Source: Streptacidiphilus jiangxiensis
GTDB lineage: Bacteria; Actinomycetota; Actinomycetes; Streptomycetales; Streptomycetaceae
Reading direction: 5' to 3'
DNA: 64,000 nt
Assembly (NCBI RefSeq): GCF_900109465.1
Contig: NZ_FOAZ01000018.1
Location: forward strand, 1 to 64,000
Of the stretch, positions 56,161 through 61,637 are shown in pieces (within the stretch, counting starts at the first letter, position 1; every line of letters begins with the position of its first letter). Made by a program: the position numbers and the translations under genes. Below the pieces are notes generated by a model. The model saw nothing but the letters and a program-made list of their open reading frames with translations, had not been told where the DNA came from and did no database searches.

Positions 56161-56172
56161 CCGACAGCGCCG

Positions 56173-56216
56173 TGACGGAGCACTGACGGAGCCGTGACGG
56201 CGGGGTTCGGCATCGT
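56173..56216 (+). promoter_or_regulatory. SARP-type direct repeats and promoter of the ABC exporter
   Basis: The heptamer TGACGG(A/C) occurs at 56173, 56184 and 56195, exactly 11 bp apart (7-bp unit, 4-bp gaps). This is the layout bound by SARP activators on one face of the helix. Nine bases behind the last repeat lies CATCGT (56211-56216), a possible -10; initiation about 7 bases later would fall at ATG 56224, giving a leaderless mRNA. A SARP gene faces this operon. Confidence 0.6.
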
Positions 56217-56223
56217 GCCTCGC

Positions 56224-57225
56224 ATGGAGCCGACGACTGATTCGAACAACGCCGCCGCCGTGCAGGTGCGGGGGCTGGCCAAGTACTACGGGGAGACCAG
56301 GGCTCTCGACGGCGTCGACCTCGACGTCGCCGAGGGCACCGTCATGGGGGTGCTCGGGCCGAACGGGGCCGGCAAGACCACGCTGGTGCGCATCCTGTCG
56401 ACGCTGGTCCGCCCGGACGCGGGCCGCGCCGTCGTGGCCGGCTGGGACGTGGAGCGCCAGCCGTACCGACTGCGCCACGAGATCGGCCTGACGGGGCAGT
56501 ACGCCTCCGTCGACGAGCTGCTGTCGGGCTACGAGAACCTCTACCTGATCGGCCGGCTGCTCGACCTGAACGCCAGGGGCGCCCGCCGTCGCGCCGAGGA
56601 GCTGCTGGAACGCTTCTCCCTCACCGACGCCGCCGGGCGGCCGACCAGGACGTACTCCGGCGGGATGCGCCGCCGCCTCGACCTGGCCGCCTCGATGATC
56701 GGGCGCCCACGCGTGCTCTTCCTGGACGAGCCCACCACGGGCCTTGACCCGCGCACCCGCAACGAGGTGTGGGCGGAGGTCCGGGCCATGGTCGACGAGG
56801 GCTCGACGGTGCTGCTCACCACGCAGTACATGGAGGAGGCCGAACAGCTCGCCTCCGACCTGACCGTCTTCGACCACGGCAAGGTGATCGCCGCGGGCGG
56901 CGTGGAGACGCTCAAACGACAGGTCGGTGGGCAGAGCCTGACGATCCGTCCGGCCCAGGGGGCGCAGCTCGACGCGATGATCCGCTGCCTCGCCGAACGC
57001 GGCCTCGCCGCGGTGCCCGACGGCGCGGGCGGGCTGACCGTGCCCGCGGTCGACGAGGCGCAGCTGACGGCCGTCGTGGCCGCGCTCGGCACCTCCGGTC
57101 TGGGGATCGCGGCGCTGGAGACCAGGCTGCCGAGCCTCGACGAGGTGTTCCTGGCCATCACCGGCGAGCAGTCGACCGTTCCCGCCGCCGTTCCCGCCCC
57201 GACCAGCCTGGAGTCCGTCGCATGA
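56224..57225 (+). CDS. DrrA-type ABC exporter ATPase
   Basis: The product is 333 residues from ATG 56224, which has no ribosome site and may be leaderless; GTG 56194 would lie inside the upstream repeats. Walker A is GPNGAGKTT, the signature YSGGMRRRLD and Walker B VLFLDEPTTGLD. The DrrA-like C-terminal region ends LPSLDEVFLAITG. It drives export of a drug or lipid with the permease that follows (ATGA overlap). Members often give self-resistance to antibiotics. Confidence 0.94.
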   Translation: MEPTTDSNNAAAVQVRGLAKYYGETRALDGVDLDVAEGTVMGVLGPNGAGKTTLVRILSTLVRPDAGRAVVAGWDVERQPYRLRHEIGLTGQYASVDELLSGYENLYLIGRLLDLNARGARRRAEELLERFSLTDAAGRPTRTYSGGMRRRLDLAASMIGRPRVLFLDEPTTGLDPRTRNEVWAEVRAMVDEGSTVLLTTQYMEEAEQLASDLTVFDHGKVIAAGGVETLKRQVGGQSLTIRPAQGAQLDAMIRCLAERGLAAVPDGAGGLTVPAVDEAQLTAVVAALGTSGLGIAALETRLPSLDEVFLAITGEQSTVPAAVPAPTSLESVA

Positions 57226-58046
57226 CCACCCTCGCCGCCCCCGCCCTCGCCGCCCCCGCCGTGCCGGCGGGCGACAACCGGACCAGCCTGCGCGCCTCGC
57301 TGCACCACATCGGCGCGCTGACCCGCCGCAACCTGATGCGGATGAAGGCCGACCCGGAGTCCCTGCTGGACGCCTTGTTCATGCCGATCCTGTTCACCGT
57401 GCTCTTCGTCTACGTCTTCGGCGGCGCGGTGGCGGGCAACTCGCACAACTACATCCAGTACATGATCCCCGGCATGTTCGGGCAGATCGGCCTGAGCCTG
57501 GCGATGGCCGTCGGCACGGGCCTCAACACCGACTTCACCACCGGCGTGATGGACCGCTTCCGCACCATGCCGATCGCCCGCTCCTCCGTGCTGATCGCCA
57601 AACTGCTCGCGGAGAGCTGTCGTTCGGCGGTCTCGCTGGTGGTCCTGGTGCTCTTCGCGATGTGCCTGGGCCTGCGCATCCACACCAGTCCGGTCAACGT
57701 GCTGGCCACCCTCGGGCTGGCGCTCGCCTTCGGCACCGGGATGGTGTGGGTCTCGATGCTGCTCGGGATGGCCATGCCCAACCCCCAGGCGGTGCAGGGC
57801 GTCGGCATGCTCATCATCGTGCCGCTGCAGTTCGGCAGCTCGACCTTCGCGCCGGTCCACTCGATGCCGGGCTGGCTCCAGGCCTTCACCTCGGTCAACC
57901 CGCTCTCCGCGCTGGCGGACGCGAGCCGGGCGCTGATCAACGGCGGCCCGGTGCTGCATCCCGCGCTGCTCGCGCTGGCCTGGTCGGTGGGGCTGACGGT
58001 GGTCTTCGCGCCGCTGGCGGTCGCCCGCTTCCGCAAGCGCACCTGA
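57222..58046 (+). CDS. DrrB-type ABC-2 exporter permease
   Basis: The product is 274 residues with six predicted helices and the ABC-2 signature region NPLSALADASRALINGG. The start overlaps the ATPase stop by four bases, so the two are coupled. MDRFRTMPIARSSVL is typical of DrrB permeases. It ends four bases from the convergent SARP gene. Confidence 0.93.
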   Translation: MTTLAAPALAAPAVPAGDNRTSLRASLHHIGALTRRNLMRMKADPESLLDALFMPILFTVLFVYVFGGAVAGNSHNYIQYMIPGMFGQIGLSLAMAVGTGLNTDFTTGVMDRFRTMPIARSSVLIAKLLAESCRSAVSLVVLVLFAMCLGLRIHTSPVNVLATLGLALAFGTGMVWVSMLLGMAMPNPQAVQGVGMLIIVPLQFGSSTFAPVHSMPGWLQAFTSVNPLSALADASRALINGGPVLHPALLALAWSVGLTVVFAPLAVARFRKRT

Positions 58047-58049
58047 CGT

Positions 58050-61000
58050 CTACCCGTCCAGCCCCTGGTACATCAGCTGCACCGTCTGCGACGCGTCCAT
58101 CGCCCGGCCCGCCGCGTACGCCTCCTCGTACGCGGCGTCGCCGAGCAGCGAGCGCAGCCCGGCCGCCGTCTCGGCGAGGGCGGCACGGTCCAGCCGGTGC
58201 TTGGCCGAACGGGTCTGGAGCAGCTCGTACGCGCCGAGCAGGCGGGCCGCCGTCCCGGCCGGATCCTGCTCCGGGACCAGGCCGGCCGCCGCGCAGCGCC
58301 ACAGCGTCCCGGTCAGGGCCGGGGCCACGACCAGCGGCAGTTGCTCGGGGACCTGCGAGCTGAGCGGGTGGCTCCGCAACTCCTCCAGGCCGGCCCGTAC
58401 CCGCCGCAGGCCGGCCTCGGGCCGACCGTCCATCGCCTCGACCGCGCCCAGCATGCTGATGACCATGCCGTTCAGCAGGTTGGCCGCGCCGGGGCCGGAG
58501 GAGTCGACGAGCAGCCCCTCCAGCAGGGTGCGCGCCTCTGCCAGGCGTTGCTGGCGCATCCGCAGGCCGGCGAGCAGCATCGTGCCGAACATCCCGGCGC
58601 CTTGGCCGATGACCCCGTAGGCGGCCGACTCCTCGATGGCGCGGACCAGTTCGGCCGCTCCCTCGTCGTAGTGGCCGAGGCCGATCAGGCCGTCGCCGAG
58701 GCGCACCCGCAGGATCGGCTGCTCCTGGTCGGCGCCGACCTCGTGGGCCAGCACCATCGCCTCGCGGCAGCAGCGCACGCCCTCCTCGAACTCCCCGGCG
58801 AAGTTGGCGATCTCGGCCCGCCCGGCCAGGGCCTCGGCCCGCCCCCAACGGTCGCCGAGCTCGGTGAACAGCGCCTGGCTCTCGGCGGCGTCCCGTTCCG
58901 CCTGGGACTGTCGGTCCCACTGGTCGTTGAGCAGCTTGGAGCGGATCTGCAGGGCGCAGGCGAGCTCCCAGCGCCGCCCGAACCGGCGACAGCCGTCGAC
59001 GAGCCCGTCGGCCACCGACTGTAGGTGCTCCAGCATCCCCGCGTACATCACCACGTAGACCCGCTGGAGGGCGGGCATCCGGGCCGACTGGGGCAGTTCG
59101 GGGCGGTAGAAGTCGATGATGCGCGCGCCGAGCTCCTGCAGCTCGGCGGAGGGCACCCCGCCGTAGATACCCTCGGCCGTGAGCAGCCGGCCCGTCGCCA
59201 CGGCCCGGCGCGCCTCCTCCAGCACCGGACGCGGCCACGGCGGTGCCAGCTCGCCGGGGCCCTCCTCGACCGGCACGGCGGGCGCGTCGAACGGGTCGCC
59301 GGGGACGAGGGTCAGCACCGCGTCGTACCAGTCGTGCGCCTCGTCGCGCCGGTTGCGCAGGTTCCAGTACCAGCCCAGGTTGCACAGCAGACTGAGCGCC
59401 TCCTGCTCCTCGCCGCCCTCCACGGCGCGGCGCAGGGCGGCCCGCAGGTTGTCGTGCTCGGCGTCCAGCAGGCGCAACGCGTCGAGTTGGGCCTCGGTGC
59501 GCAGCAGCGGGTCGGTGGCGCGGGCGAGTTCACGGAACCAGCGCAGGTGGGCGGCCGCGGGCGCGTGCGGCGCGTCGGCCTCGCGCAGGCGCTCGGCGGC
59601 GTACGCGTGGATGGTCTCCAGCATCCGGTAGCGGGGCTGCGCGTCGGTCCCCGCGGCGAGATCCGCCTGGATCAGCGACTTGTCGACGAGCGAGAGCAGG
59701 GACGGTGCCACGTCCTGCGGCAGCAGGTCGGCCGGGTCGGCGCAGATCGCCTCGGCGGCGTCCAGGGTCCACCCGCCGGCGAACACGGACAGGCGGGCGA
59801 GGAGCGTCCGCTCCGACGGCTCCAGCAGGTCCCAGCTCCAGTCCACGACGGCCCGAAGGGTCTGCTGCCGCGGCAGGTCGGTGCGGTTGCCGCCGGTCAG
59901 CAGGGCGAACCGGTGGTCCAGCCGGTCCGCGAGCTGGCGTGGCGTCATGGCCCGCAGGCGGGCCGCGGCCAGCTCGATCGCGAGCGGCAGTCCGTCGAGG
60001 CGGCGGCAGATCTCGGCGCAGGCCGCCGGGTCCTGGGCCGGGTCGCCCGGGTCGAAGCCGGGCCGTGCGGCGGCTCCGCGTACCGCGAGCAGCCGCAGCG
60101 CGGTCGGCTCCGGCAGCGGCTCCAACGGACGCACCAGCTCACCCGCCACACCGAGCGGTTCGCGGCTGGTCGCCAGCACGGTCACCCGCGGGCAGGCCGC
60201 GACCAGGCGCTGCGCGAGCTCGGCGGCCGCCTGGACGAGGTGCTCGCAGTTGTCCAGCACCAACAGCAGCTCGCGCGGCCCGCAGAACTCCAGCAGCCGG
60301 CCGAGCGGCCCGTCCCCGTCGGCGCCGGGGACTCCGGCCGCCAGCGACTCCGGCAGCCCGAGACCCAGGTGGGTCACCCGCAGCCCCAGCGCGCCGAGGA
60401 CCGCGTCCACGACCGCGCGCGGATCGTCCAGCGGCGCGAGCTCGACCTGCCACACCCCGTCCGGGTACGACTCGGCGAGCGCGGCCGCGGCCTGCTGCGC
60501 CAACCGCGTCTTCCCGGTCCCACCGGGCCCGGTCAGGGTCAGCACCCGTGCCCCGGGCAGCTCCGCGTCCAGCGCGGCCAGCTCCGCCTCCCGCCCGACG
60601 AAGCTGGTCAGCCGCGCCGGGAGATTCCCGGGCACCCGCCCGGGCACCCCACCCGGCGTCGCGCCCCCCGCCGGGACGTCGCGGACTCCCGGCTCGGCCC
60701 CGGCCCCGCCCGGCCAGGGCGCGGCGGACGGGACGGTCACCGGGGCGGGGGCGAGAAGTTGGGTGTGCATGGCGCGCAGCGCCGGGCCGGGGTCGGTGCC
60801 GAGTTCGGCCGCGAGGGTGCGCCGGGTGGAGTCGTAGGCGCGCAGGGCGTCGGCCGTGCGGCCGGAGGCGTGCAGCGCGCGCAGGTGCAGGAGGTGCCAG
60901 GACTCGTCCAGCGGCTCCGCCGCGACCCGCTCCGCAAGCTCCGGCAGGACCGCCGGGGCGTCACCGAGGGCGAGCCGGGCCTCGACGTGGGCGCGGTGCG

Positions 61001-61445
61001 CGGCCGCGCGTTCGGCCTCCAACCGCAGCGCGGCGTCCTCGCGGGCCGGCAGATCCGCGAGCGCGGGACCGCGCCACAGGGCCAGCGCCGCGCCCAGCAG
61101 CTCGGCCGCCCGCGCGGGCGGCGCCTCGGCCGCGTCGGCGACCAGGCCGCGGAAGGCGGCCGCGTCGGTGTCCCCGCCGATCAGGCGGTAGCCCTCGGGG
61201 CCGGAGGCCACGTGCTCGGCGCCGAGCGTCCGCCGCAGGCGGGCCACCAGGGTCTGCAGCGCGTCCTGCGGGTCGGCGGGACCGGCCTCACCCCAGATCT
61301 CCTCGATCAGCGCCCACGGCTGCGCGGCCCGCCCCTCCCGCAGCGCGAGCGCGGCCAGCAGGGTCCGCAGTCGTCCGCCGGCGAGGGCCACGGGCCGTTG
61401 GTCGTCATCGAGGACGAGCGAGCTGCCGAGGATCCCGAAGCGCAT
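58050..61445 (-). CDS. Large SARP regulator (AfsR/AfsR-like, with ATPase and TPR regions)
   Basis: The product is about 1131 residues; ATG 61445 fits the family N-terminus (MRFGILGSSLVL), with ATG 61451 and 61463 as alternatives and no ribosome site at any. Domains in order: OmpR-like winged helix (1-95), bacterial transcriptional activation domain (about 98-240), a Pro/Gly linker, an NB-ARC-type ATPase with LTGPGGTGKTRLA and LLVLDNCEHL, then winged helix and TPR-like repeats to the end. Members activate secondary-metabolism or export genes. The adjacent ABC exporter with 11-bp repeats is the obvious local target. Confidence 0.9.
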   Translation of the reverse strand: MRFGILGSSLVLDDDQRPVALAGGRLRTLLAALALREGRAAQPWALIEEIWGEAGPADPQDALQTLVARLRRTLGAEHVASGPEGYRLIGGDTDAAAFRGLVADAAEAPPARAAELLGAALALWRGPALADLPAREDAALRLEAERAAAHRAHVEARLALGDAPAVLPELAERVAAEPLDESWHLLHLRALHASGRTADALRAYDSTRRTLAAELGTDPGPALRAMHTQLLAPAPVTVPSAAPWPGGAGAEPGVRDVPAGGATPGGVPGRVPGNLPARLTSFVGREAELAALDAELPGARVLTLTGPGGTGKTRLAQQAAAALAESYPDGVWQVELAPLDDPRAVVDAVLGALGLRVTHLGLGLPESLAAGVPGADGDGPLGRLLEFCGPRELLLVLDNCEHLVQAAAELAQRLVAACPRVTVLATSREPLGVAGELVRPLEPLPEPTALRLLAVRGAAARPGFDPGDPAQDPAACAEICRRLDGLPLAIELAAARLRAMTPRQLADRLDHRFALLTGGNRTDLPRQQTLRAVVDWSWDLLEPSERTLLARLSVFAGGWTLDAAEAICADPADLLPQDVAPSLLSLVDKSLIQADLAAGTDAQPRYRMLETIHAYAAERLREADAPHAPAAAHLRWFRELARATDPLLRTEAQLDALRLLDAEHDNLRAALRRAVEGGEEQEALSLLCNLGWYWNLRNRRDEAHDWYDAVLTLVPGDPFDAPAVPVEEGPGELAPPWPRPVLEEARRAVATGRLLTAEGIYGGVPSAELQELGARIIDFYRPELPQSARMPALQRVYVVMYAGMLEHLQSVADGLVDGCRRFGRRWELACALQIRSKLLNDQWDRQSQAERDAAESQALFTELGDRWGRAEALAGRAEIANFAGEFEEGVRCCREAMVLAHEVGADQEQPILRVRLGDGLIGLGHYDEGAAELVRAIEESAAYGVIGQGAGMFGTMLLAGLRMRQQRLAEARTLLEGLLVDSSGPGAANLLNGMVISMLGAVEAMDGRPEAGLRRVRAGLEELRSHPLSSQVPEQLPLVVAPALTGTLWRCAAAGLVPEQDPAGTAARLLGAYELLQTRSAKHRLDRAALAETAAGLRSLLGDAAYEEAYAAGRAMDASQTVQLMYQGLDG

Positions 61446-61637
61446 CCCCATATTCTGGATCATCCGACGGGACGGGGGGCCCGGTCCCGGTGGTCCGGTG
61501 GAACCGGCACCGGGCGGCAGGCGTTCACAGCTGGGGGTGCGGATGGCCGCGCGCTGGCTTGGCGCGCGTACCGGCGACAGGGCATCATCGGCACTTCCGT
61601 CCGTCCACGGCTGTCCACGACCGGAGTCCCGTCACCC

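Follow-up and report, generated by a model that had tools for sequence, protein, structure and literature searches.

Upstream of a two-gene ABC exporter in Streptacidiphilus jiangxiensis lies a row of short direct repeats of the kind bound by SARP activators, and a gene for a large SARP runs towards the exporter from the other side. The question raised by this arrangement, which we analyzed in a window of 64,000 nucleotides (contig NZ_FOAZ01000018.1, positions 1 to 64,000), is whether the SARP controls the exporter through these repeats, and whether the pair forms a unit of its own. The first exporter gene (56,224–57,225, forward strand) encodes a DrrA-type ATPase, assigned on the basis of TIGR01188 (356.7 bits; cut-off 312.45) and of the Pfam families ABC_tran and DrrA1-3_C, with its start placed by the promoter geometry described below. 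The second (57,222–58,046, forward strand) overlaps it by ATGA and encodes an ABC-2 membrane permease according to Pfam (ABC2_membrane, 7e-30); its resemblance to DrrB is only loose, and it falls below the cut-offs of both TIGR01247 (66.6 versus 223.05) and TIGR00025 (94.1 versus 146.9).

The convergent gene occupies 58,050–61,445 on the reverse strand, and its stop codon is 3 bp from that of the permease. It had been described from the sequence as a large SARP, and the domain scans agree: BTAD was found at 1.6e-34, AAA_16 and AAA_22 scored above their cut-offs, Trans_reg_C came marginally below (25.9 versus 26.2), and the TPR_12 match was weak (20.8 versus 30.1). Residues 6–240 can be aligned to the AfsR and EmbR structures, and the GPGGTGKT and LLLVLDNCEH motifs are intact. 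The protein thus combines the N-terminal OmpR-type DNA-binding domain and following BTAD that define a SARP with the NOD/NB-ARC ATPase and TPR-like C terminus of the large, AfsR-like architecture. It is not AfsR itself, because it reaches only 122.6 bits on the AfsR model NF053617, which has a cut-off of 1430, and we therefore rejected it as an AfsR orthologue. The longest ORF begins at 61,463; the start implied by the earlier coordinate, the ATG at 61,445, is the better choice, with an ATG or GTG at the matching codon in 63 of 66 relatives.

In front of the exporter, three heptamers (TGACGGA at 56,173, TGACGGA at 56,184, and TGACGGC at 56,195) follow one another with a period of exactly 11 bp, and a fourth, degenerate copy, CGACAGC at 56,162, is in phase with them. 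We refer to this block (56,162–56,201, forward strand) as the putative SARP-type operator. A −10-like element, CATCGT (56,211–56,216, forward strand), lies 9 bp beyond the last heptamer and 7 nt before the ATPase ATG at 56,224, and no Shine-Dalgarno sequence was seen in the local sequence before this ATG. Apart from the degenerate copy, all of these positions, including the lack of a ribosome site, are as the earlier note had given them. At up to three mismatches, 0.32 matches to the repeat pattern are expected by chance in the window, and the actual site has no mismatch at all; at up to one mismatch, the TGACGG triplet occurs in a single place in the 9.54-Mb Streptacidiphilus genome, while the reversed-pattern control gave zero. 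Automatic gene callers may instead pick a GTG at 56,194, which falls within the last repeat and lengthens the ATPase ORF; the conserved start is the ATG at 56,224.

The arrangement matches the promoter rule published for SARPs, in which 11-bp repeats stand about 8 bp from a weak −10 such as CACTGT (PMC10936776); at 56,162–56,223 there are three copies at 11 bp, a 9-bp gap to CATCGT, and conservation in relatives. The ATG at 56,224 is predicted to be the transcription start as well, so that the exporter mRNA would be leaderless, a reading taken from the promoter geometry and its conservation.

That conservation was assessed on orthologous units collected from Streptomycetaceae genomes. The unit, in which the genes for a DrrA-type ATPase and an ABC-2 permease converge with that of a large SARP, is found again across the family in dozens of species, frequently in the gene order panB, ATPase, permease, SARP, M50 protease, F420 oxidoreductase. 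The earlier note had named loss of the repeats in genomes that keep the genes as the outcome that would count against it; on inspection, no such case was seen: wherever the gene pair survives, the repeats survive too, while most of the bases between them vary. Identity among the three copies at lag 11 averaged 5.95 of 7 columns in 20 promoters, versus about 3 when any other lag between 8 and 15 was taken, and 6.06 in 65 promoters, versus about 2.8–3.0 at other lags. Across 66 modules, comprising orthologues and paralogues, the promoter consensus is TG(A/T)C(A/G)G n5 TG(A/T)C(A/G)G n11 A nnn T n6-7 ATG. Judged by the last hexamer, the −10, and the ATG, the full geometry (hexamer, 11 nt, A...T, 6 or 7 nt, ATG) is present in 60 of the 66, most of the others are near, and shuffled sequences gave none. 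The −10 consensus in 46 aligned promoters is CAnnGT, with the A in 91% and the final T in 98%. A Shine-Dalgarno sequence was found in one of the 66 modules, the paralogue L039, in which the −10 is placed alike and the ATG lies further downstream.

These data bear on the reading that the repeats are an incidental relic of coding or composition and that the real promoter lies upstream with panB, which in the window does end close by, about 45 bp before the first full repeat. In many relatives, however, panB is kilobases away and the repeats remain with the ATPase; likewise, where panB or the M50 gene has been relocated, as in several genomes, the repeats are still directly upstream of the ATPase. 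With a geometry far above the shuffled and reversed controls, conservation largely refutes this explanation, and we give it practically no credence.

Unbiased genome scans led to the same gene pair. The bare triplet gave about 183 matches in 150 genomes of the family, versus 33 with the reversed pattern. Among 106 sites examined in fetched regions, 58 adjoin this ATPase, and 51 of these have a convergent SARP in the fetched region, counts that include one site seen twice in overlapping stretches (L096/L097) and two adjacent sites at one promoter (L179). In two further genomes (G135 and G111), the SARP lies a few kilobases further on, just beyond the first fetched stretch. When the −10 and the ATG were required together with the triplet, 98 genomes of the class yielded eight matches and the controls none; three of the eight lie outside the family, two in f21 genomes, where the gene is an MMPL-type exporter and no SARP turned up nearby, and one in G254, where an ABC exporter again has a convergent SARP. 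A two-copy TGAC version was present in 133 of 394 family genomes, with zero in the controls, many of the sites counted lying at another gene.

The use of 11-bp direct repeats is shared by PhoP-type regulators, which lends some weight to the idea that the protein bound here is some other regulator of the OmpR/PhoB type, be it PhoP, AfsR, or a further response regulator, and that the SARP acts elsewhere. Two-repeat sites of like geometry before YlbL-like and RecB-type genes, where the stretch fetched gave no SARP match, fit this idea, as does the persistence of the exporter repeats in a few genomes in which the SARP is unlinked. The convergent SARP at 51 of the 58 ATPase sites, joined by the two cases slightly further on, argues against it, and the repeat letters change by clade with the local SARP, something for which a shared global regulator would give no reason. 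The low score of the local SARP on the AfsR model shows that it is not AfsR. Taken with the amino acid correspondence described next, this makes another regulator improbable, and a role for the local SARP itself the preferred reading.

The third base of the repeat is best predicted by residue 71, out of 101 columns of the DNA-binding domain of the SARP. Thr accompanies TGAC in 18 of 18 cases and Ala accompanies TGTC in 40 of 40 (58/58 in total); a paralogue clade with mixed repeats has Arg. More distant modules (L039, L190–L192, and L211 in G254) likewise pair Ala with TGTC. Residue 71 aligns with Thr88 of AfsR, which in the cryo-EM structure contacts the third base pair of the repeat, while Arg92 contacts base 1 (PMC10936776); the equivalent of Arg92 is conserved in these SARPs. 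AfsR Thr88 pairs with C or T at base 3, rather than with A (PMC10936776). The SARP tree contains essentially one Thr/Ala switch, and trees built on the SARP and on the ATPase provide one, at most two, independent contrasts. Because there is about one switch, residue 71 and base 3 give a strong hint that regulator and site belong together and no independent statistical proof; regulator–operator coevolution was not counted as such, despite the perfect correlation among orthologues.

Dozens of species have retained the repeats, the distances between them, and the pairing of the genes, so that the activator very probably turns on the pump: we are confident in reading 56,162–56,223 as a SARP-dependent promoter through which the convergent SARP directly activates a leaderless exporter mRNA. 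By analogy with AfsR, protomers of the large SARP would occupy adjacent 11-bp repeats with their OmpR-type domains and would recruit RNA polymerase to the weak −10 CATCGT, as AfsR does at afsS. Transcription would then begin at the A of the ATPase ATG, or next to it, and yield a leaderless mRNA for the two-gene DrrAB-type exporter. Nucleotide and a ligand presumably gate the activity of the SARP through its NOD and TPR part; a plausible ligand would be a toxic compound exported by the pump.

Repression of the exporter by the SARP is a still more remote prospect than binding by another regulator. It would agree with what is reported of Atr32, an NB-ARC-containing SARP whose gene lies near two ABC transporter genes and which lowers the atratumycin titre (PMC6835768), although its regulatory link with the rest of that cluster is unclear. 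At the present locus, however, the repeats lie just upstream of the weak −10 and leave it uncovered, at the position from which AfsR activates, its box being centred at −29.5 (PMC10936776).

Several known systems share parts of this design. One is AfsR/afsS of Streptomyces coelicolor (PMC10936776), which has a large SARP with OmpR-type, BTAD, NOD, and TPR parts, DNA-contacting positions that can be aligned with those found here, and 11-bp direct repeats near a weak −10. The present unit differs in its target, an exporter, in its TGAC/TGTC repeats, as opposed to the TTCA-like repeats of afsS, in having three or more copies, and in an apparently leaderless target mRNA. Three heptameric direct repeats are also found in the operators of DnrI, ActII-ORF4, and PimR (PMC10972967), with 4-nt spacers, i.e. 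an 11-bp period, in the case of PimR; those operators, unlike the one described here, drive biosynthetic or cluster-regulator genes. DnrI is reported to bind before drrAB in S. peucetius (Prija et al. 2017, a reference in PMC10972967), which likewise places a SARP in front of a DrrAB-type exporter, as we predict here. DnrI is the daunorubicin biosynthesis regulator inside its own cluster, whereas the present regulator is a large SARP outside any cluster found and apparently dedicated to one exporter. In the atratumycin cluster, atr32 also encodes a SARP with a nucleotide-binding domain and lies near the ABC transporter genes atr29 and atr30; it differs in standing inside a biosynthetic cluster and in its negative effect on production.

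The earlier note had further suggested a self-contained export-control unit outside any biosynthetic cluster. This is supported as well: among the window proteins scanned, which cover part of the ORFs, there were no polyketide, peptide, or terpene core genes, and those around the unit are housekeeping proteins or single enzymes and transporters (panB, glnA, glnE, NAD synthase, amylases); moreover, the SARP gene has no repeats upstream, and the triplet is unique in the genome. Self-containment does not hold in every relative. In G025, G061, G069, and G121, the SARP is on a different contig from the exporter, which keeps its repeats; in G017, good exporter repeats are present and the SARP is elsewhere, probably unlinked; in G001, no SARP was detected at E ≤ 1e-150, and the exporter repeats are only partly in phase. 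Between them, G017 and G001 give no consistent sign that loss of the SARP brings loss of the repeats. In two other genomes (L185 in G006 and L186 in G008), the convergent SARP gene appears broken by an in-frame stop or frame breaks and the exporter with its TGTCAG repeats remains, possibly a case of regulator decay.

The SARP gene probably has a promoter of a different kind. A −10-like CAGAAT (61,452–61,457, reverse strand) lies 6 nt before its ATG, and the strict motif [CGT]A[CG]AAT with 6–7 nt to an ATG or GTG is found in 40 of the 66 relatives, with near variants in many of those that fail it. Because the start is conserved and an AGAAT/ACAAT-type −10 precedes it by 6–7 nt, the SARP mRNA is probably leaderless as well. 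The upstream regions of the SARP genes in relatives lack the lag-11 repeat signal (3.14 versus 6.06 before the exporters) and contain 0.28 hexamers per region, and autoregulation of the SARP was rejected.

SARP repeats, large SARPs, and DrrAB pumps are already known, and SARP binding at drrAB has been reported in the daunorubicin system. What appears to be new is a unit that stands alone, is kept so widely in a family that it comes close to the core genome, and has a promoter of constant, leaderless-type layout and a single apparent target; in the open literature searched, to which most subscription journals do not belong, nothing direct was found on this locus or on SARP–exporter units outside clusters. 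More tentatively, and at somewhat less than even chances, large SARPs outside clusters may be dedicated, STAND-type sensor-activators of drug exporters, each with its own DrrAB-type pump and private operator. Recognition helix and repeats would then change in concert, and control of export would be a basic SARP role besides antibiotic production. SARPs serve as beacons in the search for antibiotic clusters (PMC12224297), and a widely conserved SARP unit that seemingly controls only an exporter means that such beacons can point to pumps instead. With a regulator, one apparent operator, one target, and dozens of natural variants, the unit also offers a test bed for the DNA-recognition code of SARPs. 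Soil actinobacteria may have in it a built-in circuit for drug tolerance, and both its inducer and its substrate could be screened for.

The Streptacidiphilus genome holds three more convergent SARP–exporter pairs, each with its own repeats: TGTCAG/TGACAG in L037, TGTCAG in L039, and a TGAA type in L043. In L032 (G027), a paralogous SARP gene converges with a gene for a siderophore-interacting-type protein that has TGTCGG three times upstream, a target other than an exporter. Outside such pairs, family f21 (L201, L202, and L209) has three TGTCAG copies in matching leaderless geometry before an MMPL-type exporter; the 10 kb fetched in L209 gave no SARP match. Two-copy TGACGG/TGACAG sites with a TACTGT −10 and a leaderless-type ATG stand before a YlbL-like membrane protein gene in genus g9 (L212–L216; about 1870–1911 in L213), a pattern found in dozens of genomes of that genus, with no SARP match in the fetched stretch of these five. 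In genus g14 (L217–L219), a gene resembling RecB-family nucleases stands behind TGACAG repeats and CCCATAGGGT, with the ATG following at once. Finally, cytochrome P450 genes in L132 and L159 are preceded by TGTCAG/TGACAG/TGTCAG repeats, a GACCGT or GATCGT −10, and a ribosome site; some of the repeat sites before the RecB-type, YlbL-like, and P450 genes may use a different OmpR-family regulator.
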